Below are positions 47,839 through 63,298 of a DNA stretch of 64,000 nucleotides, piece after piece. Under the pieces are notes generated by a model that was not told the origin of the DNA, did not search any database, and was given only the letters and a program-made list of their open reading frames with translations. The position numbers and the translations under genes were made by a program. Position 1 is the first letter of the stretch; the number at the start of each line of letters is the position of its first letter. The stretch spans positions 2,776,001-2,840,000 of the forward strand of contig NZ_CP030265.1 of assembly GCF_008843145.1 (NCBI RefSeq). The letters are read 5' to 3'. The stretch is from Skermanella pratensis. Its GTDB lineage: Bacteria > Pseudomonadota > Alphaproteobacteria > Azospirillales > Azospirillaceae.

Positions 47839-48588
47839 ATGGAACTTGGCACTGCGGTAACCACCGTCAAAGGCGATCCGATCACGGTTGCCGACGTGAT
47901 TCTTCACCTCAAGGCCAAGGGAACCTTCCGTACCGCGATCTATGAAATCATCGAGCGGCGGGTGGTCGAGTACAAGCTGGAGGAACATGGCGTCAGCCTG
48001 ACCGACGCCGAGATCGAGGAGCGGGTCCATGGCCGCAAGACGATGCTGGCGCTGTGGGACGAGAACGCCTTCGCCTCCTATCTCAAGCATTTCGGCCTGA
48101 CGCGGGAGCAGTGGCTGGATACCCTGGCGGCCGACATGCGGCGCGAGCGGCTGCGCGATCTTGTGGTGACCAAGGACCTGGTTCAGAACCACTACCGCCA
48201 GAACAGCGCCCGCTTCACGTCGGTCTCGATCGCGCGGATCGCCTGCCGCACCCGGGCCGACGCGGAGCGCGCCCTGGCGGCGGTCGGCGCCCGGCAGGCG
48301 GATTTCGTCGAGCTGGCGCGGCTCTACTCGGTCGACGACAACACGAAGCTGAGCGGCGGCTACATTGGCAACCTGAAGCGCGGCATGCTGCCGACCGAGG
48401 TGGACGAGCGCGCATTCGCCTGCGACGAGAACGAGATCATCGGCCCGTTCTCCGAAAACGGACTGTGGACCATCTACAAGGTCTATTCGCGGACCGTGAC
48501 CAAGCTGAACGACGCCCTGACGAAGCAGATCAAGGACCACATCTTCGAGGAGTGGCTGCGCCATCAGGTCTGCGTCGCGCCGGCCTGA
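47839..48588 (+). CDS. Cytosolic PpiC/parvulin-type peptidyl-prolyl isomerase, peptide-maturation type
   Basis: The 249-aa protein has a SurA-like helical N-terminus (about 1-110: IYEIIERRVVEYKLEEHGVS) and a C-terminal PpiC domain (about 125-225: SIARIACRTRADAERALAAV, LSGGYIGNLKRGMLPTEVDE). It has no signal peptide, unlike SurA or PpiD, so it should act in the cytosol. PpiC-related proteins of this kind occur in some ribosomal-peptide and type I secretion clusters. It precedes the HlyD gene by 1 nt. It may hold the precursor peptide unfolded for modification or export. Confidence 0.82.
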   Translation: MELGTAVTTVKGDPITVADVILHLKAKGTFRTAIYEIIERRVVEYKLEEHGVSLTDAEIEERVHGRKTMLALWDENAFASYLKHFGLTREQWLDTLAADMRRERLRDLVVTKDLVQNHYRQNSARFTSVSIARIACRTRADAERALAAVGARQADFVELARLYSVDDNTKLSGGYIGNLKRGMLPTEVDERAFACDENEIIGPFSENGLWTIYKVYSRTVTKLNDALTKQIKDHIFEEWLRHQVCVAPA

Positions 48589-48589
48589 C

Positions 48590-50011
48590 ATGGGCAACCG
48601 GGATCGGGGCCGTTCCGTGGCACCGGCGAAGGCCTCGAAACCCGCCAGGAAGCGGGCACCGCCGAAACCGGCCGGCAAGCGTCCGGCCACGCGGTCGCGG
48701 GACGAGGACCGGCATCCGCTGAAGGCCGCGACGCTGCTGTTCTCCTCGCCCAACCCGCTGTTCCGCGCCCCGGTCTATATTCTGTTCTTCACGCTTCTGG
48801 GAATGCTGATCTATTCCTTCTTCGCGTCGAAGGACACGATGGTGGAGGCGCCGCTGATGCTCCAGCGTCAGGCCATGGTGATCCAGGCGGTCGGCGGCGG
48901 CTTGGTGGAGGCGGTGGAGGCCGGCGAGAACGCGGCGGTGTTCGCCGGCGACCCGCTCGCCACGATCCAGGAAAAGATCCGGGCGGCGACCACGCCCGAG
49001 TAGGAGGCGATGCAGCGCCAGATCGCCGACCTGCAGCAGCAGGAGCGGGAAGCGGCCAAGGAGTACGATTTCCGCCTGGGACAGCTGGAATTGGACCGGC
49101 TGAACCTGGAGCGGCGCCGCGCCACCGAGCAGGGGGCGATCGACAACCGCATCCGCCAGATCGAGATCCAGCTCCAGATCATGCAGCGGAACCGCCAGGG
49201 CATCGACGAGGACTTGGCGAACGCCCGGCAGGACCTGGGTGTCCGGCAGCAGCTCTATGCCATGCGCGACATTCCGCAGGTCGAGCTTCAGCGCGCCCAG
49301 ACCCGGGTCAGCGACCTTCAGCGCGCCCAGGTGAACGCGGAATCCGACATACAGAACGTCAGGCTGGCGCTGGAGACGGCGCGGGGCGAGCGGGTCCAGA
49401 TGGCGCAGACCTTCTCCCAGTCCCGGCTGGAGAACGAGATCGAGAACCTGAAGAGCGCCAGGCAGCGCGACCAGGCACTGATCCGCGACCGTATCGACGA
49501 GTTGACCAACCGCCTGCTGGAGTCCCGCACGCTGGTTCCGGGCGTCCGCTACGACGGGGAGAAGGCGCTCTACAGCAGCGTCGTGGACGGCGTGGTCACG
49601 GCGGTCCATGTCCAGCGCGGCACGATCATCAATCCGGGCATGCCGATGTTCACCATGGTGCGGAACACGGCGCCGCTGGAAGCCCATGTGCTGATCAAGA
49701 ACCGCGACATCGGCCGGATCAGGCGCGGCCAGCGGGTGCAGATCAAGTATTTCGCTTATCCAGGTGACGATTACGGCGTTCAGAACGGCATCGTCGCGGA
49801 CATCGCGGCCAAGCCGGACAGTCAGCCAGGCGGGCAGTCCATGTACCAGGTCAAGGTGGCGCTGGAACGCGAGACGGTGACCGGGCTGAACGGCGTGACC
49901 AAGACCCTGGAAATCGGCCTGGAGGGTACCGCGGAGATCAAGACTGGGGAGAAGCGCCTGATCGAGATCCTGTTCGCCCCGGCCTCCCGGTTCTTCCAGA
50001 AGGAGGAGTGA
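48590..50011 (+). pseudogene. HlyD-family membrane fusion protein interrupted by an in-frame TAG
   Basis: The frame encodes about 472 residues of a type I secretion adaptor. In order it has a basic cytosolic N-terminus, one membrane helix (about 60-80: YILFFTLLGMLIYSFF), half of a lipoyl domain, a long coiled coil (about 145-305), the other lipoyl half (LYSSVVDGVVTAVHVQRGTI) and a beta-barrel (QRVQIKYFAYPGDDYGVQNG). At 49001-49003 TAG follows TTPE, in frame; one base change would restore a sense codon such as CAG or AAG. GGAGG and ATG directly follow, so the rest might be re-initiated, though the spacing is short. Whether the stop is real or an error needs checking. Confidence 0.85.
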
Positions 50012-50041
50012 GGCTAGCGGTCCGGCACAGTGATTTCAGTC

Positions 50042-50153
50042 GGTGCATCGCAGGTCGGACTCGGCTGAAGGCCGACGCCGACACCATGGCCGGAGCTTCG
50101 GTGCAACGCGTCGGCGTTCGCTCTTGCGGGCGAAGGCCGACCTATCGCACTCC
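50042..50153. repeat. Imperfect inverted repeat, REP/BIME-like, between convergent genes
   Basis: The left half (50042-50082) carries GCATCGCAGGTCGG. On the opposite strand the right half (50109-50153) carries the related GCGATAGGTCGG; each half also contains GAAGGCCGAC. The right half alone folds into a 12-bp stem with one mismatch (GTCGGCGTTCGC against GCGAAGGCCGAC). The pattern and position match dispersed REP-type elements. No second copy was noticed in this window. Confidence 0.5.
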
Positions 50154-50169
50154 GCGCCGCGTGACTTAC

Positions 50170-51138
50170 CTAAGCCGCCGCCTCCAGCGTGCCGGTCCGG
50201 GCGAACGCGACGAGATAGCGGGCGAGGGCGCCGAACACGGTGTGGCGGTGCTCGGGCGGCAGCCACATGACGAACGGGCCGGGATTGCAGTCGAGATATG
50301 TCAGCTTGCCGTCGTCATCCAGGATGGCATCCCAGGCGGCGTAGTGCAGACCCAGGGCTTGGTTGGCCCGGACGATGGCGGCCTCCTCCGCCGGGTCCAG
50401 GGTCACCGGCTCGAAGCCGCGGGTCGCGGTCCGCGAGTCGACGCCGTCGGCCAGGATGCGGAGCGGCAGCACGACCCGGTCTCCGACGATGTGGATGCGG
50501 ATGGTGGAGCCGGGCACGCGATGCTGGAACAGCGCCGGGCACAGCAGCAGCTCGTCCAGCCGCGCGCGATCCTCGGCCGTGACGCTGCGGGTGGAACCGA
50601 CGCCGATGGCGGGCTTGACCACCGCCTCCCCGACCTCGTCCAGGAAGCGCGCCGCCTCGTCCGGGCAGCTCGTGCTGAGCGACCGCGGCGCTCGGAAGCC
50701 GGCGGCGCGCAGCTTCTCGTAAAACTGGCCCTTGCTGTTGTGGTCGACATAGGCGGAGGTCAGCCGGTTGATCACCAGTCGCCCCGTCATGTGAAGATGC
50801 TCGAAGAAGCCGTAGGTCGCCGCGTTCAGCGCCTGTTCCTGGATGTAGGACACGCGGTACTCGGAATAGGTCGCCTCGTTCAGCACCGGTGGCAGGACGG
50901 GCAGGGTGCGCGGCGCCGTGCAGCGGATATGGACGGCCCGGATATCGCCGAAATCCACGTCGCCCCAGCGCGATGCAGCGGCGGAACCCGGCGCCCCGAT
51001 CCCGACCGTCGGCTTGCCCGGCCGCCCGATCTGGATGTCCATGACGACCGGCTCGGCGCCCAGCGCAGTCACCTCGGCGGCGATCTCGGCGATCTGGGCG
51101 CTGTCTTGGTTGGCGAACAGGGCGATCTTCGCAGTCAT
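50170..51138 (-). CDS. ATP-grasp ligase, probable peptide-modifying enzyme
   Basis: The 322-aa protein has the ATP-grasp layout. The pre-ATP-grasp domain (1-110) ends in LVINRLTSAYVDHNSKGQFY. The lid region has EAVVKPAIGVGSTRS, the central sheet PALFQHRVPGSTIRIHIVGD, and the metal-binding end YAAWDAILDDDGKLTYLDCN with the Asp and Asn expected to hold magnesium. Relatives (RimK, MvdD/MdnC, graspetide synthetases) join carboxylates to amines or hydroxyls on peptides. The gene starts 33 nt after the stop of the Gly/Ser-rich peptide gene on the same strand. By inference it modifies that peptide, perhaps by ester or amide cross-links. I start at the ATG at 51138. Confidence 0.8.
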   Translation of the reverse strand: MTAKIALFANQDSAQIAEIAAEVTALGAEPVVMDIQIGRPGKPTVGIGAPGSAAASRWGDVDFGDIRAVHIRCTAPRTLPVLPPVLNEATYSEYRVSYIQEQALNAATYGFFEHLHMTGRLVINRLTSAYVDHNSKGQFYEKLRAAGFRAPRSLSTSCPDEAARFLDEVGEAVVKPAIGVGSTRSVTAEDRARLDELLLCPALFQHRVPGSTIRIHIVGDRVVLPLRILADGVDSRTATRGFEPVTLDPAEEAAIVRANQALGLHYAAWDAILDDDGKLTYLDCNPGPFVMWLPPEHRHTVFGALARYLVAFARTGTLEAAA

Positions 51139-51171
51139 TCCAGGCATCCCCGCATGGTCGTCGCCGACCGG

Positions 51172-51429
51172 TCAGAAGCTGATGTCGATGGAACCGATGG
51201 CGGTATTGTCGGCGGCCGATCCGCCCAGCGCGCCGCCCGCGGCGGAGGAGGAATAAGCGTCGCCCCCGGACCCGAAGGCGTCGGCCTGGCCGAAGGAGGC
51301 ACCGAATGCGCCGCCGGCCAATCCCGAACCCGACCCCGCGCCGCCGATCCCGGCCGAGCCGGATTGGGCATGCCCGAAGGCGTCGCCGCCGGACTTCCCG
51401 TTCTGGTCGAAGTTCAGATCAGTGCTCAT
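51172..51429 (-). CDS. Gly/Ser/Ala-rich 85-aa peptide, candidate precursor of the ATP-grasp system
   Basis: The 85-residue product starts MSTDLNFDQNGKSGGDAFGH and ends AADNTAIGSIDISF. About two thirds of it is Gly, Ala or Ser. It has no Cys, Pro or Arg, and one Lys and one His. SGGDA[FY] occurs twice (13-18 and 54-59), with QADAFGSG between. Ser, Thr and Asp residues suited to ATP-grasp cross-linking are spread through it. An AGGGAG precedes the ATG at 51429; a longer in-frame reading lacks a ribosome-binding site. The ligase gene follows 33 nt on. It could instead be a structural or adhesive peptide, but its context fits a ribosomally made, modified peptide. Confidence 0.7.
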   Translation of the reverse strand: MSTDLNFDQNGKSGGDAFGHAQSGSAGIGGAGSGSGLAGGAFGASFGQADAFGSGGDAYSSSAAGGALGGSAADNTAIGSIDISF

Positions 51430-51741
51430 GGACAAACTCCCTGCCGCCATGCCGTCGCCATCCCGTGCCCCGCTTGCAACCAAGAGGAAATTTGCGGCCG
51501 CGCGCGTATGTCGTGGCGGGTACTGTGCCAATCGATGTACCATTTGTTGCGGGTTTCGTCCATGGCTTCGTCCGGGAGGGCGCCCTCGTCCGAGAGTCCC
51601 TGGACGGTTCCACCCCAACGGAGCACCGTTACAGCCAATTTTATATTTATCTTGAGTCGCTTGGACGGGAATGACATTAACTCAGGGTGGACCGGGCTGC
51701 CTCGCGAAGGGCGCTGGACCCCGATCAGGATGATTTCTTGA
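51430..51741. other. Divergent intergenic region between the peptide gene and the PP2C gene
   Basis: These 312 nt carry the likely promoters of the peptide-ligase pair (minus) and the PP2C gene (plus). A sigma-54-like site lies at 51514-51530. The right part (51600-51680) is AT-rich compared with the flanks. No coding frame is supported. Confidence 0.45.
51514..51530 (-). promoter_or_regulatory. Candidate sigma-54 promoter for the peptide gene
   Basis: On the minus strand TGGCAC (51530-51525) gives a perfect -24 box. GG and GC are spaced by 10 nt as required, but the -12 box reads CCGCC instead of TTGCA. Transcription would start about 75 nt before the peptide ATG. The element is partly symmetric, so a plus-strand reading toward PP2C (TGGCGG, GTGCC) also fits loosely. 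A sigma-54 activator is encoded in the same cluster. Confidence 0.35.
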
Positions 51742-52503
51742 ATGACAGGCATCACTCCCCGCTCAGTTCGATATGCCGGCCTCACGGATGTCGGCCGCGT
51801 CCGCTCCCAGAACGAGGACTCGTTCCAGATCGATCCGGACCTCGGCCTCGTGCTCGTGGCGGACGGCATGGGCGGCCATGTCGGCGGCGACATCGCCAGC
51901 CGGACCGCGATCGAAGCGGTGAACGACTTCATCCTTGAATACGAACCGGTGCCGGACCGCCTCGATCGGACCGGAACCGAGGGATCGATCGAGATCGTCC
52001 GCACCGCGGTCCACCGGGCGAACCAGCGGATCGTCGGCCTGAACCACGAGCGCGGCCTGCCGGACAACCGCGGGATGGGCACGACGATCGTCGGTTTCTG
52101 GCTGCCGTCGGGCTTGTCCCCGGCCATCGTCTTCCATGTCGGCGACAGCCGGCTGTACCGGCTGCGCGGCGGGCGGCTGGACCAGATCACCCATGACCAC
52201 AGCCTGTATCAGGCGTGGGTCGATGCGGGAAGGTCCGGCGCCCCGCCGAACCGCAACATCATCATGCGGGCGCTGGGCGTCGCGGACGACGCCGAGGCCG
52301 ATGTCTCCATCCAGGAGACCCGGGCGGGCGACACTTTCCTGCTGTGTTCCGACGGCCTGAACGGCATGGTTCCCGACGACACGATCATCGACATACTGAT
52401 CGAGCCGCTGGCGCCGGAGGAGGCCTGCCGCCGTCTGATCGCGGAGGCGAACGCCCATGGCGGCCGGGACAACGTGACCGTGGCGCTGGTCCGGTTCGAC
52501 TGA
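51742..52503 (+). CDS. PP2C-family (PPM) protein serine/threonine phosphatase
   Basis: This 253-aa soluble phosphatase has the bacterial Stp/PppA motif set: TDVGRVRSQNEDSF, VLVADGMGGHVGGDIAS, FHVGDSRLYRLRGG, LLCSDGLNGMVPDD and GGRDNVTVALVRFD, with all metal-binding Asp residues kept. It would dephosphorylate Ser/Thr on partner proteins. Two FHA-domain proteins, which read phosphothreonine, are encoded next to it, but no Ser/Thr kinase gene is in the window. It is divergent from the peptide gene and convergent with the cyclase-FHA gene. Confidence 0.92.
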   Translation: MTGITPRSVRYAGLTDVGRVRSQNEDSFQIDPDLGLVLVADGMGGHVGGDIASRTAIEAVNDFILEYEPVPDRLDRTGTEGSIEIVRTAVHRANQRIVGLNHERGLPDNRGMGTTIVGFWLPSGLSPAIVFHVGDSRLYRLRGGRLDQITHDHSLYQAWVDAGRSGAPPNRNIIMRALGVADDAEADVSIQETRAGDTFLLCSDGLNGMVPDDTIIDILIEPLAPEEACRRLIAEANAHGGRDNVTVALVRFD

Positions 52504-52516
52504 CTGGCGGCCGGGT

Positions 52517-53412
52517 TCAGCCGGCCTCCCCTCGATCGTGCCGCAGCGGTACCGGACGACGTTGTCCGGGTCCTCGGCCGGCGCGATCCCGAGGGAAATC
52601 AGGCCGGAGGTCAGCAGGTAGGTCGGCTCCCGCTTCAACACAAGCAGGCGCTGACTTTCGTCCAGGCAGAAGGTGCCGTTGGTGCTGTGGTCGGTCAGGG
52701 TGAAGCGGCCGTTCATGATCTCCAGCGTCGCGTGCCGACGGGAGGCCCAGTCGCTGTTGATCACCAGCCCGCACCCGCCGTCACGCCCCATCAGCACCGG
52801 CGCCGAGCCGGTGTCCAGGCGGAGCTGGCGTCCGCGGTGGGTCAGGATCAGGATGCCTCGGCGCTTGCCGCTGGACATATCGAGCTGGCCGGCCGCGACC
52901 GTCACGTTCTCCGGATCGCCGAGGGTCCGGTAGATCTCGACGGCATCGATGCCGCCCTTGACGACCGCCGAATCGAGCCGCTGGGTGTTGGGCCGGTAGG
53001 CCGGGTGCAGGGCGTCGACGCAGGCGCGGGTCATCAGCACCTCGCCGGGGCTGGCGAGGGCGGCGAGGCGGGACGCGAGGTTGACCGTCGTGCCGAACAC
53101 GTCGCCCTGCGTCACGATCACCGGACCGATGGTGAAGCCGATCCTGACCTTCGGCTCGGTGCCGCGCAACGCTTCCTGGACATGGGCGGCGGCGCAATAG
53201 GCGGTGTCGGCCGACGGGAAGGTGCTGAGCGCGCCGTCGCCCATGGTCTTGACCACGGTTCCCGCATAGCGTTCGGTCGCCTGGATGATCTGGCGGACGC
53301 ACCGCTCCGTCAGGGCGTGCGCGGCGACATCCCCCAGGACCTGGTATAGACGCGTGCTGTCGCAGACGTCCGCGAACATCACCGCCATGGACTCGCCGGA
53401 CTGATCCGCCAC
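52517..53412 (-). pseudogene. Class III adenylate/guanylate cyclase fused to an FHA domain, 3' frameshift
   Basis: The N-terminal cyclase domain (about 8-165) keeps both metal-binding Asp residues (MFADVCDSTRL and KTMGDGAL) and the NLASRL segment. A C-terminal FHA domain (about 195-290) has VLMGRDGGCGLVI, SDWASRRHATL and DHSTNGTF. The frame has no stop at its natural end: it runs on antisense through the PP2C gene. Adding one C to the four-C run at 52528-52531 would end it at 52517, 13 nt from the PP2C stop. I take a GTG at 53412, 19 nt after the FHA-protein stop, as start; an ATG at 53487 would overlap that gene. It would make a cyclic nucleotide in response to phosphothreonine binding. Confidence 0.78.
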
Positions 53413-53431
53413 GACCGCACTACCCCGCTCG

Positions 53432-54763
53432 TCACCCCGGGCCGGACCCCAGGAACTCTTTCCACTGGTTGAGCAACGGCAGATCACGGTCTTCGACAGA
53501 CTTGACCGCCGAGTTGAACAGTATGTAATCCACCGAAAGATACCTGTTCGTCTCCCGCCGGATCCGGGTGAAATCGAGCTTCAGCGCATCCAGGGCCTGG
53601 ATGCGGTCGCGCGGCGGCTGGGCCGGCGCGAGCTTAGACACCTGCGGGAACTCGGTCGAGAGCGCGCGCAGGTCGATCAGGATCCGGGCCAGCTTGACCA
53701 ACTCGCGAACCACCGCGAGTCCGTCGGTGGAGCCGTGCTCGGCATTGGCGGGAACCCGGCCGGCCGTCGTCTCCAGGTCGGCGTTCAGCCGTTCGGTCAG
53801 ACGGCGCAGGCTGGAGAGATCGCCCTTGGCGAGCAGCGGCAGAAACTCCCGCTCGAAGGACAGGAACTTCATGCGGGCCGCCAGGTCGGCCAACGGAGCG
53901 CTCTGTTCGGAGGCAAGCAGCCGGCCGCTGTCGGCGATCGCCTCCGCCAGTTCGTTCAGGTCCTGGTCGAAGGAGACGGCTTGGTTGCCGCCTGCATACT
54001 GGGATGCGCGATCGATCACCCGCTTGCGAATCGCGGAGGAATGCTCGATCGCCTTGGCGACGAACTGCTGCTTCTTGTGGATCGGGTAATAGACCGCGGC
54101 GCCGATTCCCAGGCCGGCCAGCACGGCGGCCACAACTCCGCCCAGGATCAGCTTGCCGCGGATGCCGGAACGCTCCCGCTCTTCCACGGTGCCGTCCTCG
54201 TCCTCGTCGACCTTCAGCTTGACGGGAGCCTCGACCTTGCGGACGGCGTCGAGCACGGCCTTGCCGGCGCCCAGGCTGCCGACCATCATGGTCCGCTCCG
54301 ACAGGTCGTCGTCATGCTGGACGGGCAGGGCGCGCCCGCGTTCCGCCGCGTTGGCGGGAGGGCGGTCCAGCTCGAAGCGGAAAGCCAGGGAGCCGAGCCG
54401 GACTTCGTCGTTATGCTTCAGCCAGATCGTGTTGACCTTGTGGCCGTTGACATAGACGCCGTTGGTGCTGTTGAGATCCTCGACTCCCCAGGTGCCCTCG
54501 CCGGGAAACAGTTTGGCGTGCTGGCGCGAGAGCTTGCGGGACGCGACGACGAACGAGCTGGCGTCGCCCCGCCCTATCGTGACCGTCTTTCCGGCGGCAA
54601 GCGGGACCACGACCTGGGCCGGACTGCCGTCGATCTGCGACGGATCCAGGCAGATCAGCTTTCCGTCCGGATTGCCCGCCGATGCGTTCGCCGCGCCGCC
54701 GGCGCCGGCCCTGCGCCCCTGGTCGCGTACCAGCATGGTTCTGTCTTGGTTTGAATCGATCAT
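53432..54763 (-). CDS. Membrane-anchored FHA-domain protein
   Basis: This 443-aa protein has an N-terminal cytosolic FHA domain (about 58-132: TIGRGDASSF, LSRQHAKL, DLNSTNGVYVNG). A linker follows, then one membrane helix (about 205-226) and a helical periplasmic part. Two similar Thr motifs flank the FHA domain (DRTM around Thr9 and SERTM around Thr158), plausible phosphorylation sites for a kinase that PP2C would reverse. It lies upstream of the cyclase-FHA gene and 144 nt after the second ATP-grasp-like gene. It may link phospho-signals to the export machinery. Confidence 0.85.
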   Translation of the reverse strand: MIDSNQDRTMLVRDQGRRAGAGGAANASAGNPDGKLICLDPSQIDGSPAQVVVPLAAGKTVTIGRGDASSFVVASRKLSRQHAKLFPGEGTWGVEDLNSTNGVYVNGHKVNTIWLKHNDEVRLGSLAFRFELDRPPANAAERGRALPVQHDDDLSERTMMVGSLGAGKAVLDAVRKVEAPVKLKVDEDEDGTVEERERSGIRGKLILGGVVAAVLAGLGIGAAVYYPIHKKQQFVAKAIEHSSAIRKRVIDRASQYAGGNQAVSFDQDLNELAEAIADSGRLLASEQSAPLADLAARMKFLSFEREFLPLLAKGDLSSLRRLTERLNADLETTAGRVPANAEHGSTDGLAVVRELVKLARILIDLRALSTEFPQVSKLAPAQPPRDRIQALDALKLDFTRIRRETNRYLSVDYILFNSAVKSVEDRDLPLLNQWKEFLGSGPG

Positions 54764-54907
54764 CGCTCGACGGGATGTCCGGACCAGAGGATGTGCGGGA
54801 CGCGCCGGCGTCGAGCCGCCGCGCCGCGGCGCAGAGCCGCACGGTCACTATGCCGAAGCATGGCATTTTAGGCAACCATGACGGTAACAATTAACGTTCA
54901 TTAATCT

Positions 54908-55963
54908 TCATGAGGGAGGTGCGGTGACATGCTTGGTCCGCTCGATGTCGAACTGGATGCGGAGCATGCGGCGCAGGAAGAGGCTTTCCCTGGGGGCGGC
55001 CGCGAGACTGTCTGCCGGGGGCGGCGGCTCCCCCGCGAGGGTGGCGGCCAGGCACTCGGTCAGGTGCTCGCCCAGCGCTCCGGGAAGATCCGTCACGGCC
55101 GGATCGGCGTCCACGTCATAGATGACCGGGCCGTCCGGGCCGGCCACGTACAGGACGCTGCCCCAGCGCAGGCCGGAGAGGGTGAGCGCGTTCCCGGCCT
55201 CATGGGTCTCGGCTTCGGCCGGCGGTCCGGCGACGGGAGCGAAGACCTCCAGGCGCTCCAGGGCATCGTCCGACGGCGGGGCCCATTCGAGCGTCAGCAC
55301 GGTCCGGCCGTCGATCGCGTAGGCCCGGCGCAGCGGCCCTTCCACGGTCGGCGCCAGCAGGACCGGCGGCTTGTCTGCTCCCATCAGGTGCTCGCGCTGG
55401 CGGTCGCGGAACACCTGCCAGGCGCATTTCCCTGTCGCCGTCCGCCACACCACGGCGCGGCCCTGGTCCGCTGCGGACCGGGCGAAGTCCCGCGCGGTGA
55501 CGGGGTCGTTGGTGCAGATCGCGGAGGCGACCCTAAGGCCGCCCCGGTCGAGGCGCTCCAGCTGGTGGTGGCGCGAGAAGGCGGCGAGATGCCCGGACGG
55601 GCCGTTATACAGCCGGACCGGCGCGTCTTCGAGCCGGGACAGCATGCTGTAGAGGAAGCTGTAGCGCTGCTGCCGCCGGACATGCTCCGACTGCCACAGG
55701 GACCAGTCGGCGCCGGGCTCGGTGCCGGGGTCCGCGGCCGGGATCACGGGGTCCTCGTAGCGGAACCCATGGACGAAAAGCGCGTCGAACCGGTCGAGTT
55801 CATGCCCGTCCCAGCGGATGCCGGTTCGGCACACGCTCATTCGGGTTCCCTCCGGCATCGAAGCGTCGAACCAGGGCACGTCGTTCCCCATCCGCCGGCG
55901 GAGTCCGGCATGGAGGCGGCGGCCGAGGGGGGACGCCGCGGGCGCGATCAGGCCGATCTTCAT
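54908..55963 (-). CDS. ATP-grasp-like protein with degenerate catalytic residues
   Basis: The 351-aa protein follows the RimK/MvdD plan: N-terminal domain (MKIGLIAPAASPLGRRLHAG), a hinge segment (PVRLYNGPSGHLAAFSRHHQ), a central sheet (GRAVVWRTATGKCAWQVFRD) and a terminal part (LRWGSVLYVAGPDGPVIYDV). In active ATP-grasp enzymes the last stretch ends in a Glu and Asn that bind magnesium; here it reads YDVDADP, so metal binding is uncertain. Its ATG overlaps the stop of the third TolC gene by 4 nt. Graspetide clusters often have two ATP-grasp proteins; this could be an active partner or a binding subunit. Assignment is by pattern only. Confidence 0.6.
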   Translation of the reverse strand: MKIGLIAPAASPLGRRLHAGLRRRMGNDVPWFDASMPEGTRMSVCRTGIRWDGHELDRFDALFVHGFRYEDPVIPAADPGTEPGADWSLWQSEHVRRQQRYSFLYSMLSRLEDAPVRLYNGPSGHLAAFSRHHQLERLDRGGLRVASAICTNDPVTARDFARSAADQGRAVVWRTATGKCAWQVFRDRQREHLMGADKPPVLLAPTVEGPLRRAYAIDGRTVLTLEWAPPSDDALERLEVFAPVAGPPAEAETHEAGNALTLSGLRWGSVLYVAGPDGPVIYDVDADPAVTDLPGALGEHLTECLAATLAGEPPPPADSLAAAPRESLFLRRMLRIQFDIERTKHVTAPPS

Positions 55964-57915
55964 GGTTTTCCTTCCGGTTTGGCGACCCCGTCCGGCCGGG
56001 ACGCGACGGGTCTGAAGAATGAGAGGTGGCCGGCGTCGGCCAGCAGCTCCAGGCGGTTGCGGTCGAACTGGCTGACGACGGTCTGCTCCGCCAGCGCGCC
56101 GGCGATGGTCCCCTGGGCGAAGAGCAACCCGCTCTCGGCCTGCTTCGCCTCGACGCGGGCCCCGGTCAGGGCGAGCCGGGCGGAGAGCAGGCGCCGCGTC
56201 GCCTGGATCAGCTCGTCCTCCGACACGGTGCCGGTGAGTGCCTGCTGGCGCTCCAGGCTGGCGACGGAGGTCGCCAGGTTGTCGGCTTCGGCGGCACCCG
56301 CCCTGACCCGCGCGCGCGCGGCCTGGACGGCCGCCAGCCGCTCGGTGATCTCGCGCCGGACGCGGTTCTGTAGGGACTGGGTGGCGAAATCCTGGTCGCG
56401 GGTGCCGAGCCGCGCGATGTCGGCTGCGGCCCCGGCGGACCGGTTCGCCCAGGGATAGGACAGGCCCAGACCGTAACTCTGGCTGAGGCTGTCCGGCGAC
56501 GCTGTTCCGGTATGGCTCTTCAGGGGATCGGCATAGCCGTAGGTCGTCCCGTTCTGCCCGGCGGTGACGTTGGCCACGAAGCGGAGATCCAGTCGGGCCT
56601 GATTGCGGGCCAGGGCCTCGTTGATGTCGCGCAGCGTCCGGTTGATGTCGTCCACCTTGAAATCGGGCCGGCTTTCCCGGGCGGTCCGCAGCGCCGTCTC
56701 CAGGTCGGCCGGGACGGCCTGCGCCAAGTCGTCCTCGTAATCGACCGGCAGATAGATGGCGTCCGCGCCGATCGCCGACGGATCGCCGATCAGCAGGGAC
56801 AGGGACTGCGACACGGCGACGTAGTCGCTGAGCGCCTGTTCGACCCGGACCCGGGCCCTGGCCGCCTCGGCGTCGATCTGCGCCTTCTGAAGCCTCGTGG
56901 TCTGATTCAGCGCATAGAGGCGGTCCATCCTTTCCTGCTGCCGGACGATCATGTCGCGGTTGGCGACGGTGGTCTCCAGCGCTTCCAGGCGGCGTACGGT
57001 ATCGAAATAGGCGGTGTCGATCTCCAGCAGGATCGTGTTGAGCAGCACCTGGAGATCCCAGTCGGCGCGTTCAGCCACGGCGGCGGCGCTGCGCGATGCC
57101 GCGTTCTTCCTGTTGTCGGACCCGAAATCCCTGGTGAAGGGCAGGGGCATGTTCAAGCTGCCGGACAGGTTGGTGCTCCACATCCCGTCCTCCCAGTAGT
57201 ACCCGGCGCGGTAATAGACCTCGCGCTGGGCAGTCCGGTCGGTGATCGAGAGGGTGCCGCCCCAGGGCAGCTCCTGCGTGATCTGGATCGTGTAGTTCAG
57301 GCTTTCCTCGGGACTGCCGAACTCCCGGCCCGGCGTCGCCTCGATCGGCAGCTCGATCAGTTCGCCGCCCTTGATCGGCCTCAGCTTCATGTCCTTGATC
57401 TGCGCCTGCCCTTCGTTCTCGCTCGGCGGCAGGTTCTTGAAGGGCGAGTTGATGTTGAAGCCGTCGGCATTGACCGCCTTGGTGATCGCCTTGCCGATGC
57501 GCGTGCGGTGCTCGGTGTCCATCCGGCCATAGCCGATCGTCAGGTCCAGCACGGGGTTGAACACGGCGTCCGCCTCGCGGGACAGGGCGGCGGCGCGTTC
57601 AGGCGTCGTCAGGCCGATCGCCAGGCGCAGGTTGTTGCCGAGGCCGCTGGCCACCGCGGACCTGCGGTCGAGCGGTTCCACCATGCGTGCGCCGCCGATG
57701 TCGGGCCGGCGCTTGAGCAGCTCGGCGACCAGGGTCATCCGGTCCAGGTCGCGGGCGCCGGGCTGCTCCGCGATCTGCCGCCTTACCAGTTCCGTGACGG
57801 CGGCGCCGTGCCGCGCGATCAGGTCGGAGCCGGGGGACTGGGCCGCCGCGGGAACGGCCTGTGCCAGGATCAGGATGGCGTTCACGAGCGGCAGCAGGAA
57901 TCGGCGCGGCGTCAT
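55960..57915 (-). CDS. TolC-family outer membrane efflux protein, third of three
   Basis: The 651-aa protein has a signal peptide (about 1-26, ending AAAQ) and an OEP/TolC body with long helical hairpins (DWDLQVLLNTILLEIDTAYF; ALSDYVAVSQSLSLLIGDPS) and two strand regions. It is longer than usual (TolC about 470) because of an N-terminal insert. The strand segment ELPWGGTLSITD is shared in form with the next paralogue (LPWGGNLDLTI), and MPLPFTRDFG with both others. The gene overlaps its neighbours by 4 nt on each side. Confidence 0.88.
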   Translation of the reverse strand: MTPRRFLLPLVNAILILAQAVPAAAQSPGSDLIARHGAAVTELVRRQIAEQPGARDLDRMTLVAELLKRRPDIGGARMVEPLDRRSAVASGLGNNLRLAIGLTTPERAAALSREADAVFNPVLDLTIGYGRMDTEHRTRIGKAITKAVNADGFNINSPFKNLPPSENEGQAQIKDMKLRPIKGGELIELPIEATPGREFGSPEESLNYTIQITQELPWGGTLSITDRTAQREVYYRAGYYWEDGMWSTNLSGSLNMPLPFTRDFGSDNRKNAASRSAAAVAERADWDLQVLLNTILLEIDTAYFDTVRRLEALETTVANRDMIVRQQERMDRLYALNQTTRLQKAQIDAEAARARVRVEQALSDYVAVSQSLSLLIGDPSAIGADAIYLPVDYEDDLAQAVPADLETALRTARESRPDFKVDDINRTLRDINEALARNQARLDLRFVANVTAGQNGTTYGYADPLKSHTGTASPDSLSQSYGLGLSYPWANRSAGAAADIARLGTRDQDFATQSLQNRVRREITERLAAVQAARARVRAGAAEADNLATSVASLERQQALTGTVSEDELIQATRRLLSARLALTGARVEAKQAESGLLFAQGTIAGALAEQTVVSQFDRNRLELLADAGHLSFFRPVASRPDGVAKPEGKP

Positions 57916-59960
57916 CGCGGGGGTTCCCCGAAAGCGGCGAGCGCGCCGGTACCGCGGAGCAGGGCTATGCGTTCCCGATCCTCGCGGGTCTGGGCGACCC
58001 CCTCCCCGTAGCGCTCGGCCAGGGCGCCGATGCTGGCCAGCATCCTGCTTTCCGCGATCCGGGCGTCGATCCGCGCTTGGATGTGGCCGAGGCGCGCCTC
58101 CAGCAGGGTGCCGAGGCGCTCGATCGTCTCGTAGACGGTCACGACTCCGCCAGCTTCCAGGCGGGCGGCCCTGTCGTGGAGGTCGCGGGCGAGGGCGAGG
58201 CGCTTGGCGGTGTCGTCGATCCGCTGACGGGCGCTGGCGAGCTGGATCCGGGCGGTCTCGTAGTCGCCGCGGATCTGCCGTTCGACCTGATGCAGCAGGT
58301 GGGTCTGCCGCGCGATGTCGAAATCGGCGCCGGCCAAGGCCGCCTTGGCGGCGCGGTTGCCGACCGGCCTGCGGTAAAGCACGCCGATGCTGAAGGACGC
58401 GCTGTCGTAGCTGATCAGGTTGCCGAGCGATTCGGTCACGCTGGCATAGCCGTAGACCGCGTTGCTCTGGCTGAGCTGGAAGGAGCCGCTGGCCGTAACG
58501 TCCGGTCGCGTCTGCGCGTCCCTGGTCTCCCGTACCCGAAGGGCGATCCGGATCGCCGTTTCCGACCTCAGGTAATCGGGGCTGTCCAGCACCCGGGCCG
58601 CCAGCCCGCCCGTTGCGCCGCCGGATGGGGACGGAACTTCGGGCGGCTGATCCAGGGCGGCGCTGTACTCGATCGGCAGCAGCAGCGCTTCGTCCTGCTC
58701 GTCCAGCAACTCGCGGAGGGACTCGGACGCGGTGAGATAGTCGCCGAAGAGCTGCTGCTGGACGGCGCGCAGCCGCTCCATCTGGGCGACGACTTGGCCG
58801 CGGTTGCTCTCGCTGGCGAGACCCAGCTCCATCCTGCGCTGCATGCGCGCGGCGCTCTCCTCCGCCAGCGCCACGGAACCAGCCGCGGCGTCGAGCCGCT
58901 GGATGCCGCCGACCAGGGTCCAGTAGAGGGTGTCGACGCTAAGCAGGGTCTGGTTGACCACCCCGCGGACGGCGAAGTCGGCGACGTCTAGGTTGAGCCG
59001 GGCCGTGTCGATAGCCAGTCGGTTCTCGTCACCCTCGCGGAAGTTCCGCGTGTAGGGGAGCGGATGGCTGCCGGCCAGCGTCGCCCGCGAGGTCCAGGGG
59101 CGCCCATAGGAGCCGTAGACCTTGGTCGAGGGATCGTCGGGATTGTTGACATAGTAGGCGTCGCGGTAAGTCGTGACGATGGTGAGGTCCAGGTTGCCGC
59201 CCCAGGGCAGCCGCTGGGATACTCCGCCGGTCCCGGTATAGGTCTCGGTCTGCCCGTTCGGGCTCTTGGTGCTCGCCTCCTTGCGGAACGGATAGTACCC
59301 GGCGACGCGCTCCTTGTCGAAGGCGACCAGGGCCACCGGGGCGGTGGACGGCAAGGCCCGGATATGGCACCGGCCGTTCGCATCGGGCGCGATCATCCGC
59401 CCCCGCAGGAAATTGGTCTGAAGTTCCGGCGGCTGGCTCGGGATGTCGTCCATCGTGCCGCACAGGAAGATATCGTCCGTCCGGGTGCCCGTCAGGATCT
59501 GCTGGCCCCGGACATATTCCTGCGTCGCGGGCTTCCATTGCATTGGCCGCTCGATCCGCTCGAAGCTGTTGGACAGGGAAGCGTTCGCCGCCAGGATGAA
59601 GACCGGGTCGAAGACCGCTTCCGCCTCGACCAGGGTGCGCTGGACCACCGACTGGTTCAGCCCGATCCGCTTGACGTCGAGGTTGCGTTGCAGCGCCGTC
59701 AGTGCCGCTTCGCGCAGGGCCAGCTCCCGTGTCTGCTCCGGGGCGAACAGGACCCCGGTCCGGGCGAGTGCCGCGCGGGTCTTCGCGACCACGGCGTTGC
59801 CGCCGCGCTCGTCATCGATGCGCGCCGGATCGCTGGTGAAAAGCCCCGCCGGCATCCCGGACGGGGGCTCGTTCCCCGTCGGCTGCTGGGCGGGAAGCGG
59901 ACCGGGGGCCAGCGCCAATGTCAGGAAAACGGCGACGGCGGGGGTCGCGGGCAGGCTCAT
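57912..59960 (-). CDS. TolC-family outer membrane efflux protein, second of three
   Basis: The 682-aa protein has a signal peptide (about 1-24, ending LPAQ) and the TolC helical hairpins (LDVADFAVRGVVNQTLLSVD; RIDDTAKRLALARDLHDRAA). The N-terminal half carries a long insert with a CGTMDDIP-type loop and the shared strand motifs LPWGGNLDLTI and HPLPYTRNFREGD. The three paralogues differ clearly in sequence, so they are old duplicates rather than recent copies. The gene overlaps its neighbours by 4 nt. Confidence 0.88.
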   Translation of the reverse strand: MSLPATPAVAVFLTLALAPGPLPAQQPTGNEPPSGMPAGLFTSDPARIDDERGGNAVVAKTRAALARTGVLFAPEQTRELALREAALTALQRNLDVKRIGLNQSVVQRTLVEAEAVFDPVFILAANASLSNSFERIERPMQWKPATQEYVRGQQILTGTRTDDIFLCGTMDDIPSQPPELQTNFLRGRMIAPDANGRCHIRALPSTAPVALVAFDKERVAGYYPFRKEASTKSPNGQTETYTGTGGVSQRLPWGGNLDLTIVTTYRDAYYVNNPDDPSTKVYGSYGRPWTSRATLAGSHPLPYTRNFREGDENRLAIDTARLNLDVADFAVRGVVNQTLLSVDTLYWTLVGGIQRLDAAAGSVALAEESAARMQRRMELGLASESNRGQVVAQMERLRAVQQQLFGDYLTASESLRELLDEQDEALLLPIEYSAALDQPPEVPSPSGGATGGLAARVLDSPDYLRSETAIRIALRVRETRDAQTRPDVTASGSFQLSQSNAVYGYASVTESLGNLISYDSASFSIGVLYRRPVGNRAAKAALAGADFDIARQTHLLHQVERQIRGDYETARIQLASARQRIDDTAKRLALARDLHDRAARLEAGGVVTVYETIERLGTLLEARLGHIQARIDARIAESRMLASIGALAERYGEGVAQTREDRERIALLRGTGALAAFGEPPR

Positions 59961-61843
59961 CGCAACAGGTCCTCCTCCAGCGTACCCTGGGCGGCGCTCA
60001 GCCGTATCCAGGCCTTGTGCATCTCCACCCTGGCGTTCGCCTCGTTGAGACGGGCCGTCAGGACGTCCTGGTAGCGGTTGACCACCTCGAACTCCGTTGC
60101 GAGCCCGCGCTCCCGCTCGTCGACGATGCGCTCATAGGCGAAGTCCGCCAGCTCCTTGTCGCCCCTGCTGACCAGCATCAGGGCCTCCGCCCCGCGGATG
60201 TCGGCCAGCGCCCGGTCCACCGAATTGACGATCTTCTGCTTGGCCTGCCGCGCGCGGTCGAACGCGTTGCGCTCGTCGATCCGGGCTCGGCTCTGGGCGG
60301 CGCGGGCGGCCTGGTTGCCGAGCGGGTAGAGATATCGGACGCCGATGAAGATGTTGGTCTTGTCCGGCTTGGTCAGGTTCATGAAAGAATCGGCCGGGTT
60401 TCCGAACCCGAAGGCGATGTCGCTCTGCGTGAGCTGCGCCGTCAACACCAAGTCGATGTCGGGCGCCGCCTGGTTGTCGCGGAAGGCGAGCGACAGCTTG
60501 GCCAGTTCCAGATCCTCCTGCGCCGCCATGATCTCCGGATTGCCGACCAGCGCGCGGTCGTAGGCGTCGGTCGGCGGCTCGGGCACGGCCTCGGCCAGCA
60601 GCGCCTCCGCGTCGGCCGGTATCAGCACCAGGTCGGGGTCGGCCGACATCAGGGTCAGCAGGGAGTTGGACCGCAGCAGGTACTGGGTCCAGGCGGCCTC
60701 CTCCCGCAGGGCGAACGAGGCCAGTTCCTGCTGGATCTGGCCAAGCTCGTAGTTGGTGACGGTCCCGGAGCCGATCAGCCGCTCGATCCGGGTGCGCCGA
60801 TGGTCCAGCACCCTCTTCTGCTCGTTCAGGATCCTGATGTCCTGGAGGCTGCGGATCATGTCCCAGTAGAGCTGGACCGCCTCGGCCAGGGTCGCGTTGC
60901 GGGCCGCCTGTTCCGCGAACACGGCCCGCCGGCTGCCGCTTCGCGCGGCCTCCACCCCGAAGTTCTCCGGCGATCCGGTCTTGCCGAAGCCCTTGGTGTA
61001 GGGGAGCGGCATTGTCGCCGACAGCGAAGCCGAGCTGGTCCAGAACAGCTTGTCGCCCCATCCGAACGGGTCGGTCGCCGAGATCGGCCTAGTCAGTGGT
61101 GGCGCCTGGGCGCCGGCCTTGCTGTTGAAGATGGAGCTGAACGACAGGCTGCCCTGGGCTCCGAAGGCGAACACCTTGGAAACGCCGAGCGTGGTCGTCA
61201 GGCGCTTGGTGGGCGGTCCCTTGAGGTTGGCCGCTTCCTCCCGCTCCGAGTATTGCGGCACCTGGCCGCACAGTCCCGGCCCGATGCCGCCGTTGATCAG
61301 CTCGTCGTCCTCGAAGACGCAGGGGACTTTCTCGCCGTCCACCTCTTCCACGGTTCCCCTGTTGCCCTGCACGAAGTCCGGTATGCCGTCGCCGTCGTCG
61401 TCACGGGTAAGGTCGGTGTCGGCGGTCCGGGGGCGGCCGATCACCTCAATACGGTCCGCCGTCCTGCTGACGCTGAGACCGACCGAGCCTACCAGGTTGA
61501 GATCGAAGGCCGCTTCCTTCTGTGTTATCTGCGTACCCGCCGCGTTGATCGCCTCGCGCGCCGCCAGCAGGCCGAAGTTCTCGCGCAGCAGGGTATCGGC
61601 GACGATCTCCAGGGTGATCTCGCGCGGTGCCAGACTGTCGAGCAGGCGCCGTACGCCGATCGCCGACCCCGAGGAGGCCAGCCGGACCATGGCGACGGGA
61701 TCGATCGCGCCGCTTTCCGCCTCGGCTTGCGCGTTGGCGGGGACGGCCAGGGTGAACGGCAGCAGGGCCGGCAACAGGCCTGCAAGGGCCCGATGCAACC
61801 TGATCAAACTCGCTCCACGGATTCTTCCAACAAGAGCTTGCAT
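59957..61843 (-). CDS. TolC-family outer membrane efflux protein, first of three
   Basis: The 628-aa protein starts at the ATG at 61843 with a signal peptide (about 1-39, ending PANA); an upstream TTG at 61867 is less likely. The TolC body has helical hairpins (NATLAEAVQLYWDMIRSLQD) and strand motifs MPLPYTKGFGK and KVFAFGAQGSLSFSS. An N-terminal insert contains an acidic DDDGDGIPDFVQGN loop, a possible calcium site. It is the first gene of a minus-strand operon of three TolC genes and the ATP-grasp-like gene, divergent from the sigma-54 activator. Confidence 0.88.
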   Translation of the reverse strand: MQALVGRIRGASLIRLHRALAGLLPALLPFTLAVPANAQAEAESGAIDPVAMVRLASSGSAIGVRRLLDSLAPREITLEIVADTLLRENFGLLAAREAINAAGTQITQKEAAFDLNLVGSVGLSVSRTADRIEVIGRPRTADTDLTRDDDGDGIPDFVQGNRGTVEEVDGEKVPCVFEDDELINGGIGPGLCGQVPQYSEREEAANLKGPPTKRLTTTLGVSKVFAFGAQGSLSFSSIFNSKAGAQAPPLTRPISATDPFGWGDKLFWTSSASLSATMPLPYTKGFGKTGSPENFGVEAARSGSRRAVFAEQAARNATLAEAVQLYWDMIRSLQDIRILNEQKRVLDHRRTRIERLIGSGTVTNYELGQIQQELASFALREEAAWTQYLLRSNSLLTLMSADPDLVLIPADAEALLAEAVPEPPTDAYDRALVGNPEIMAAQEDLELAKLSLAFRDNQAAPDIDLVLTAQLTQSDIAFGFGNPADSFMNLTKPDKTNIFIGVRYLYPLGNQAARAAQSRARIDERNAFDRARQAKQKIVNSVDRALADIRGAEALMLVSRGDKELADFAYERIVDERERGLATEFEVVNRYQDVLTARLNEANARVEMHKAWIRLSAAQGTLEEDLLR

Positions 61844-62044
61844 CAGCGCCTGGTTTCTCAAGCACAATGAGATCAGGCACGATTGATGACATTTCGAAAG
61901 GGGAACGGCAAGCCTTTGTAGGTAGACAAGTTGATCCGGTTGCGAGTAGATCTAGCAGGCGGGACTGCCCGGCGGGGTACTGCACGTTCCGCTCCGAGTC
62001 GATCAGGCCCGCCACCGATTTCGCCGCCCCGCCCGCTCAACCAT

Positions 62045-63298
62045 ATGCACCCGCGTTCCATGGACGATGATTACCGTCAGCCAAGCCCCTATTCCGCGGG
62101 GATTTTCGCCGACAGCAGCAGCGATCACATCAATGAATGCATCGCCCGGATCGAGGCCCTCAAGTTCAAGGTTCTCGGCAATTCAAGATTGTTCGACTTC
62201 GAGCAGCACGAGTTCCTGAGCGAGCTGAACACCCTTCGGGCCGCCTATCTTCATCTCTGTACCCTGACCCTGCCTGCGGCGGCCGCGCCGAGCGAGCAGA
62301 TGCGGCCTGTCGTCGCGTCACGCGGCCGGGAGAACCTGGAGCTCGAAGGCGTCCTGGGCGCCAATCACCAGATCGCGGCCAACCTCGACCGGATCGCGCG
62401 CATCGCCCCGTCCCAGCTCACCGTCCTGCTGGAGGGGGAAACCGGGTCCGGCAAGGAACTGTTCGCCCGGATCATCCATCTCAACAGCAAGCGCGACAAG
62501 TTCGTCGCTGTCAACTGCGGGGCGCTGCCCAGCGGAGTCATCGAGTCCGAACTGTTCGGCCACTCGAAAGGCGCCTTCACCGGCGCCACGGCGGACCGCA
62601 AGGGCCGGTTCGAGGAGGCCAACGGCGGCACGATCTTCCTGGACGAGGTTGGAGAGCTGGAGCCGCTCGCCCAGGTCAAGCTGCTGCGCACGCTTGACGT
62701 GGGGGAGATCCAGAGGGTCGGCTCGGACAAGGTGACCAAGGTGGATGTCCGCGTCATCGCGGCGACCAACCGCAACCTGGAGCAGATGGTCACCAACGGG
62801 ACCTTCCGTGAGGACCTGTTCTTCCGCCTGAACATCTGCCATCTGCTGATTCCGCCGCTGCGGGAGCGGCGGGACGAGATCCAGCTGCTGCTGGAATATT
62901 TCATCCGCAAGGTTTGCGCCGACAACGGCATTCCGGTGCCGACGCTGGATCCGGAGCTGAAGCGGTTCCTGGTGGAGACCTACCACTATCCGGGCAATAT
63001 CCGGGAGCTGCGGAACCTGGGCATGTACATCGCCCATATCTTCGACGGTCGGCCGGTGCGCATCGCGGACCTGCCCCAGCGCTATACCCGCGCGCACATC
63101 GATCCCGCACCGACCCACCCCGACGACGATCACCGCGTGGTCCGCGACCGGGCTGAGCGCAGCCACCTGAGCGAGCTGCTGCTGCGTCACAGCGGCGACA
63201 TCAAGGCAGTGTGCGCGGCGCTGGACCTATCGCGCGCGCGTCTTTATCAACTCCTCAAGAAGCACCATCTCCGCCCCGACGAATTCCGCCAGCGCTGA
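62045..63298 (+). CDS. Sigma-54-dependent transcriptional activator without a standard sensor domain
   Basis: The 417-aa protein has a short N-terminal region (about 1-100) of no recognised type. The AAA+ domain has Walker A GETGSGKE (131-138), the sigma-54 contact loop GAFTGA (176-181), Walker B (TIFLDEVGEL) and the arginine-finger region. A Fis-type HTH ends it (GDIKAVCAALDLSRARLYQL). It should open sigma-54 promoters. Start choice is uncertain (ATG at 62045 or 62060), as neither has a good ribosome-binding site. It is divergent from the TolC operon and is the obvious candidate regulator of the peptide system. Confidence 0.9.
   Translation: MHPRSMDDDYRQPSPYSAGIFADSSSDHINECIARIEALKFKVLGNSRLFDFEQHEFLSELNTLRAAYLHLCTLTLPAAAAPSEQMRPVVASRGRENLELEGVLGANHQIAANLDRIARIAPSQLTVLLEGETGSGKELFARIIHLNSKRDKFVAVNCGALPSGVIESELFGHSKGAFTGATADRKGRFEEANGGTIFLDEVGELEPLAQVKLLRTLDVGEIQRVGSDKVTKVDVRVIAATNRNLEQMVTNGTFREDLFFRLNICHLLIPPLRERRDEIQLLLEYFIRKVCADNGIPVPTLDPELKRFLVETYHYPGNIRELRNLGMYIAHIFDGRPVRIADLPQRYTRAHIDPAPTHPDDDHRVVRDRAERSHLSELLLRHSGDIKAVCAALDLSRARLYQLLKKHHLRPDEFRQR

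Follow-up and report, generated by a model that had tools for sequence, protein, structure and literature searches.

A conserved gene system with an apparently dead ATP-grasp twin and three TolC genes, most likely for glycine-rich peptides, in Skermanella and distant bacteria

Does a run of genes in Skermanella pratensis encode a machine that makes, modifies and secretes a ribosomal peptide? The run lies at 47839..63298 of a 64,000-nucleotide stretch, here called the window (positions 2776001-2840000 of NZ_CP030265.1; the genome record is one contig of 5.87 Mb). The original prediction joined a small glycine-rich peptide gene to an ATP-grasp ligase (ligase A), a second ATP-grasp-like protein (ligase B), a PpiC-type isomerase, an HlyD adaptor, three TolC genes, phospho-signalling genes and a sigma-54 activator; all of these genes are present in the sequence and are backed by family searches. 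The original reading is supported in part. The system exists and is conserved, and its most likely task is the production, modification and secretion of glycine-rich peptides. It is probably a ribosomal-peptide system of the graspetide type, whose precursors are modified and then exported by a type I route. Of the new points, the strongest are a conserved, seemingly dead ligase twin, an ancient TolC triplet and dispersed precursor genes linked to sigma-54. Gene identities, linkage, co-occurrence, catalytic residues, peptide ends, the TolC triplet and promoter matches were all read from sequence.

The genes recur as a set

In 4/4 congeners the genes from PpiC through to the sigma-54 activator follow the same order as in the window, with the activator at the margin of the DNA retrieved. 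A ligase A scan of a named genome collection returned 23 loci. Ligase A loci span Skermanella, other Azospirillaceae, Magnetococcales, Planctomycetota and Betaproteobacteria, with further loci in Gammaproteobacteria (including a Granulosicoccaceae isolate), Thiotrichales and one deltaproteobacterial metagenome-assembled genome. One locus, L054, belongs to a metagenome bin labelled Bordetella parapertussis, a label that looks doubtful.

Profile mapping gave as the fullest recurring arrangement a sigma-54 activator, PpiC, HlyD, an ATP-binding cassette (ABC) exporter with cyclic nucleotide-binding-type (cNMP-type) and C39 peptidase domains, an FHA protein, TolC, TolC, TolC, ligase B, peptides and ligase A. 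Magnetococcales L051/L185 runs from a partial activator through ligase A on a single contig, with three peptides; the same genes are clustered, in differing orientations, in Planctomycetota (L057) and a betaproteobacterium (L058/L184). These three clusters and the gammaproteobacterial L059/L186 are contiguous or nearly so. ABC exporter, HlyD and TolC are encoded together in L051/L185, L057, L058/L184, L059/L186, L181, L182 and L189.

Ligase A occurs in 9 of 82 genomes from the order and the peptide in the identical 9; ligase B is present in all of these and also in G031, a draft that is 91% complete. A full-length exporter is encoded by 7 of the 9 ligase A genomes and by none of the remaining 73. 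Among 15 genomes outside the order, which were selected for carrying ligase A, ligase B was found in 15 and the exporter in 12; in G120 ligase B is visible only as two pieces on different contigs. The original prediction set as its test whether genes for the peptide, the ligase, the isomerase, HlyD and TolC repeatedly occur together in relatives; they do, both in the family and in several phyla.

In the window the genes are as follows.

47839..48588, + strand: PpiC-type protein (PF00639, 42.3 bits); no evident signal peptide; nearest NCBIfam family TIGR04500
48590..50011, + strand: HlyD-type adaptor (TIGR01843); an in-frame stop at 49001-49003 leaves open reading frames (ORFs) 48590-49003 and 49010-50011
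50170..51138, − strand: ATP-grasp A (ligase A), graspetide-synthetase-like (TIGR04187, 66.6 bits, cut-off 350); ATP-binding Lys175, Asp-Ser-Arg 234-236 and Asp-Cys-Asn 283-285 intact
51172..51432, − strand: Gly/Ser/Ala-rich precursor peptide of 85-86 residues by start choice, with the conserved ends of its family, immediately upstream of ligase A
51742..52503, + strand: PP2C-type phosphatase; accessory
52500..53388, − strand: class III nucleotide cyclase fused to an FHA domain (PF00211 and PF00498); accessory
53432..54763, − strand: FHA-domain protein, retained in the export operon of relatives
54908..55963, − strand: ATP-grasp B (ligase B), an apparent, conserved pseudo-ATP-grasp; no Pfam match; TIGR04187, 24.4 bits
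55960..57915, − strand: TolC-type protein, third of the triplet (family and structure-profile searches)
57912..59960, − strand: TolC-type protein, second of the triplet (family and structure-profile searches)
59957..61867, − strand: TolC-type protein, first of the triplet (family searches, TolC tree)
61931..63298 (ORF), + strand: sigma-54-dependent activator, likely start 62051 or 62060; heads the operon in several relatives

The three TolC genes and the ligase B gene are joined in a chain by 4-base overlaps. The original prediction treated the phospho-signalling genes as part of the system, and this stands for the FHA protein, which belongs to the operon in most lineages and is core. It fails for the other two, which are not core: within the stretches fetched, the FHA-cyclase was found only in five Skermanella-genus loci and the PP2C phosphatase only in Azospirillaceae loci, L031 and L049. 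The window's FHA-cyclase frame extends to 51763, antisense into the PP2C gene, while in three close congeners it ends near 52.5 kb.

Precursor peptides with fixed ends

Sixty-nine distinct ORFs match the peptide family at E ≤ 1e-3. KxGG and D[NT][TS]x[IM] are both present in 67 of them, as judged on hits of a profile in which these motifs themselves raise the score; the remaining two are truncated by a contig or stretch end. Lys, Asp and Thr are conserved within the end motifs (KxGG, DNTxI), and the residue following GG is Asp or Glu in 60/67 peptides. In an alignment of 50 distinct peptides, the middle varies and the ends are fixed, an invariance that is partly by construction because the alignment was anchored on the end motifs. 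These 50 average 33% glycine, 15% serine and 14% alanine; 49 have no Lys between the end motifs, and none contains Cys.

Each of the nine genomes of the order that encode the peptide has 2-7 copies, and 28 of their 42 matches are distant from ligase A, as are 14 of the 29 in outside-order genomes. A precursor gene stands beside ligase A in the window and at L024-L027, L030-L032, L049, L051-L054, L058 and L061, with tandem arrays of five in L032 and four in L030; none was found beside it at L028, L029, L055-L057, L059, L060, L062 or L064.

An apparently intact ATP-grasp ligase and its degenerate twin

Counts for the ligases are of distinct sequences with matches of at least 200 bits and at least 600 bases; these and the TolC counts omit L065 (a fragment) and loci that repeat a genome (L043-L048, L050). 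Lys175, Asp234, Arg236, Asp270, Asp283 and Asn285 of ligase A are retained in 25/25 sequences. In structure-profile searches, the nearest solved structure is 7drm (E 3.3e-32), which we take to be PsnB of plesiocin; weaker matches are 5ig9, 5ig8, 9bou, 7mgv and 7m4s. Asp-Ser-Arg of ligase A aligns with Asp-Phe-Arg of 7drm, and an alignment to 5ig9 was also made. A motif of the Asp-x-Arg type is rated critical in graspetide synthetases in PMC13097080. Ligase A thus has both marks of a graspetide synthetase, the ATP-binding residues and the Asp-x-Arg motif.

Ligase B is likewise a homologue of graspetide synthetases (7drm, E 1.6e-17). In 19 sequences, the ATP-binding Lys is replaced by Arg and the Arg of Asp-x-Arg is gone in all 19, and the Asn is retained in one; in seven further genomes, Lys is replaced by Arg in six and His in one, the Arg is gone in all seven, and the Asn is gone in 6/6 that reach that position. 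Overall, both the ATP-binding Lys (25 Arg, 1 His) and the Arg of Asp-x-Arg are missing in 26/26. Because the ATP-binding Lys is always missing, ligase B looks like a conserved pseudoenzyme. The original prediction implied an active partner ligase, a role that we reject on these lost catalytic residues.

An ancient TolC triplet

Exactly three adjacent TolC genes, in one order, were found at 19/19 loci with a complete stretch; the TolC stretches of L055, L187 and L190 end at contig ends and fall outside the 19. L059 and L183 each have one additional weak TolC match elsewhere. Mutual identity among the three paralogues is 24-26%. A tree of 46 TolC proteins places the second and third genes in clades of 14 each (support 94/96 and 93/89); the 15 first genes all lie to one side of a weakly supported branch (64/94), and the Planctomycetota second and third genes group separately. 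We read the paralogues as anciently distinct, with one position-specific clade each across Pseudomonadota and their order retained.

The economical reading of this pattern would be a mixed trimer, and no such trimer was reported among the matches listed from the open-access literature. It is an even call whether the genes instead give three separate homotrimers serving different peptides or adaptors. E. coli TolC, a homotrimer according to PMC8277102, is a precedent for separate channels, and the low mutual identity of the paralogues is consistent with them; set against this are the exactness of the triplet in every complete locus, its fixed order and position-specific clades, and the single HlyD-exporter pair beside it in most clusters.

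Isomerase partner and exporter

The best NCBIfam match of the PpiC protein is TIGR04500, the family of graspetide partner peptidyl-prolyl isomerases (PPIases), at 78.3 bits against a cut-off of 180. The match starts at profile position 90 of 340, which is residue 7 of the protein; the N-domain of the PPIase partner (~90 residues), which resembles a RiPP (ribosomally synthesized and post-translationally modified peptide) recognition element, is missing from the window protein. PpiC orthologues adjoin HlyD or the exporter in relatives.

The original prediction had called the lack of an ABC exporter and protease a real gap. This is true of the window, and relatives possess an ABC exporter fused to a C39 peptidase domain and to cNMP-type domains. 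The exporter gene lies between HlyD and the FHA protein in L055, L057 and L058 and encodes 1025-1061 residues, and scans of these three exporters show two cNMP-type domains, a C39 peptidase domain and an ABC transporter. Genomes G001-G004, G009, G027 and G011 encode full-length orthologues with 52-56% identity to the L058 protein, and the S. rosea exporter used as query recovered the same 7 among the order's 82 genomes. The exporter of S. rosea lies on a plasmid of 613 kb and that of S. mucosa on one of 435 kb, each time beside a second HlyD; one secretion system is divided between replicons in Skermanella. Exporter and second HlyD are found at L087 7427-12147, on the S. rosea plasmid, and likewise at L088, and the first HlyD still accompanies PpiC in the main cluster.

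A complete C39 site, with Cys, His and Asp, is present in 7 of 18 aligned exporters. Removal of a leader after GG by C39 is possible in some lineages and unlikely in others, to judge by these residues.

Sigma-54 sites at dispersed precursor genes

A strict sigma-54 pattern gave 19 sites in the window genome, against 2 for a reversed control. Three of the 19 perfect sites sit 90-97 bases upstream of the genome's three peptide genes outside the window; the 16 other strong sites may mark further regulon members. Across genomes, sites scoring at least 20 of 22 precede 20/28 single or first-in-array peptide genes and 0/20 later genes, on an ad hoc score, with first and later genes sorted by hand and near-identical congeners counted separately. 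Fisher values for these counts take no account of relatedness. Because these sites precede the scattered precursors and none lies in the window, the activator probably governs the scattered precursors rather than the in-cluster peptide.

Comparison with known systems

The closest known system is the PPIase-dependent graspetide rosaritide; the present system would work like it and is not filed as a member of its group. Rosaritide (group 21, the mir cluster of Micromonospora rosaria) is described in PMC13097080 as having a TIGR04187 synthetase, a TIGR04500 PPIase and a peptidase-containing exporter; the PPIase-like MirC is required, and its N-domain is needed (PMC13097080). Shared with group 21 are a TIGR04187-related synthetase, a TIGR04500-related PpiC protein, a precursor peptide and, in relatives of the window genome, an ABC exporter with a C39 domain. 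Unlike MirC, the window PpiC lacks the ~90-residue N-domain. The Skermanella-type system also has a pseudo-ATP-grasp, a TolC triplet, an FHA protein, cNMP-type domains on the exporter, a sigma-54 activator and glycine-rich precursors encoded at dispersed sites, none of which is mentioned in the accessible part of PMC13097080.

HlyD and TIGR04500 proteins are listed near graspetide ligases in PMC8939145; TolC, FHA and PP2C do not occur in its main text, the part searched. That paper also reports a different case, truncated, inactive ATP-grasps in its branch 8 (PMC8939145), whereas ligase B is not truncated. The two-ligase microviridin clusters (MvdC/MvdD) likewise have two related ATP-grasp proteins per system, but ligase B here has lost its catalytic residues in all 26 sequences. 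Both microviridin ligases are active.

With HlyB/HlyD/TolC type I secretion the system shares a C39-like ABC exporter (best NCBIfam match TIGR01846), HlyD and TolC; it differs in the two cNMP-type exporter domains, the three TolC paralogues and the small substrates. As in the Cys-less exporters of this system, the C39-like domain of HlyB lacks the catalytic Cys. Peptidase ABC exporters with cNMP domains and a similar architecture occur in cyanobacteria and Burkholderiales, with 29% identity over 97% in Leptolyngbya and 33-34% over 94-97% in Caballeronia and Burkholderia. The Caballeronia and Burkholderia plasmids encode full-length exporter relatives, with no gene annotated under the match. 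We found no paper combining Skermanella with ATP-grasp in the open-access literature, and among the matches listed from that literature none describes the present gene set.

Proposed mechanism and alternatives

We propose that ligase A modifies small glycine-rich precursors in the cytoplasm, where the PpiC-like protein and the pseudo-ATP-grasp B would assist without catalysing, by holding the peptide or the enzyme. Three components would carry the product out: the cNMP/C39/ABC exporter (encoded on a separate replicon in Skermanella), HlyD and, in the outer membrane, a channel of the three TolC paralogues. The sigma-54 activator would turn on precursor genes dispersed in the genome, and the FHA protein and the cyclic-nucleotide-type domains of the exporter probably gate export. 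Control by phosphothreonine or cyclic nucleotides, part of the original prediction, stays putative. What we infer is how the linkage is formed, what the partners do, that the TolC proteins form a joint channel, that export is gated and that the product is used outside the cell. A much more specific version would have the peptide stapled between its end motifs (Lys of KxGG, or the acid that follows, to Asp or Thr of DNT) by a ligase with a dead twin, and leaving through an obligate TolC heterotrimer with one third from each paralogue; we regard this full version as unlikely.

Several observations weigh against a graspetide-type system of this kind. The window proteins fall below the cut-offs of both group 21 families (66.6 of 350 bits for TIGR04187, 78.3 of 180 for TIGR04500). 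Outside the order, the peptide was recovered at E ≤ 1e-5 in just 8 of the 15 genomes, and L055, L056, L057, L059, L060, L062 and L064 have no recognised peptide beside ligase A. None of five Skermanella in-cluster peptides reaches a sigma-54 site score of 20, and the window has no such site even with one mismatch allowed, so that a sigma-54 promoter for the window genes was rejected. The C39 Cys is lost in 11/18 exporters (L055, L057, L059, L061 and all seven from Azospirillaceae); because of this loss, GG leader removal is not a general step, and we reject it for lineages with a Cys-less exporter. Positions taken as the phosphate pocket are poorly conserved in both cNMP-type domains, though the domains themselves are conserved. 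GG stays conserved in the peptides of lineages with a Cys-less C39, which so far has no explanation.

Two further points concern the window genome itself. The HlyD stop at 49001-49003, which the original prediction did not mention, is missing in 4/4 congeners; it may reflect a pseudogene, strain variation or a sequencing error. No exporter turned up in the window genome's single contig, and no full-length one in G013. Because the genome record is one chromosome-sized contig, this absence may reflect other replicons outside the record. With HlyD interrupted and the exporter not found, the system may or may not function in the window strain.

How do other readings fare against these genes? Ligase A might add a residue, by RimK-like glutamylation or another amide bond, so that the product would be a tagged glycine-rich peptide. 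RimK-type ligases do match ligase A, only more weakly (1e-6, versus 3e-32 for 7drm), and the Asp-x-Arg motif retained in 25/25 sequences argues for a graspetide synthetase; the RimK-like reading is improbable. A structural role deserves more weight, though we hold it doubtful: the peptides could form a secreted glycine-rich surface or biofilm fibre, with the ends driving assembly or secretion and the ATP-grasp pair acting on the ends or as chaperones. The Gly-, Ser- and Ala-rich composition, the absence of Cys, the variable middle with fixed ends and the many copies per genome all fit such a fibre; the apparently intact catalytic site of ligase A does not. This possibility is compatible with the graspetide-type explanation and differs from it mainly in how the product is used. 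Finally, the dispersal of system genes over several places or contigs in G009, G027, G011 and G013 is what a chance neighbourhood of unrelated genes might look like. The dispersed genes are nevertheless inherited as a set, and the genes are joined in distant phyla, which leaves chance a negligible explanation; for the core genes we reject it on their co-inheritance.

Significance

A graspetide-type system as set out here would extend graspetide-type chemistry to glycine-rich precursors of 80-90 residues, encoded at scattered sites and all served by a single machine for maturation and export. The conserved pseudo-ATP-grasp would test how dead enzymes serve as partners in RiPP pathways, and the TolC triplet is the best candidate known to us for a non-homotrimeric TolC channel. 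Because the system occurs in cultivable hosts (S. rosea, S. mucosa, S. aerolata, S. stibiiresistens and a Granulosicoccaceae isolate), each of these points is testable.

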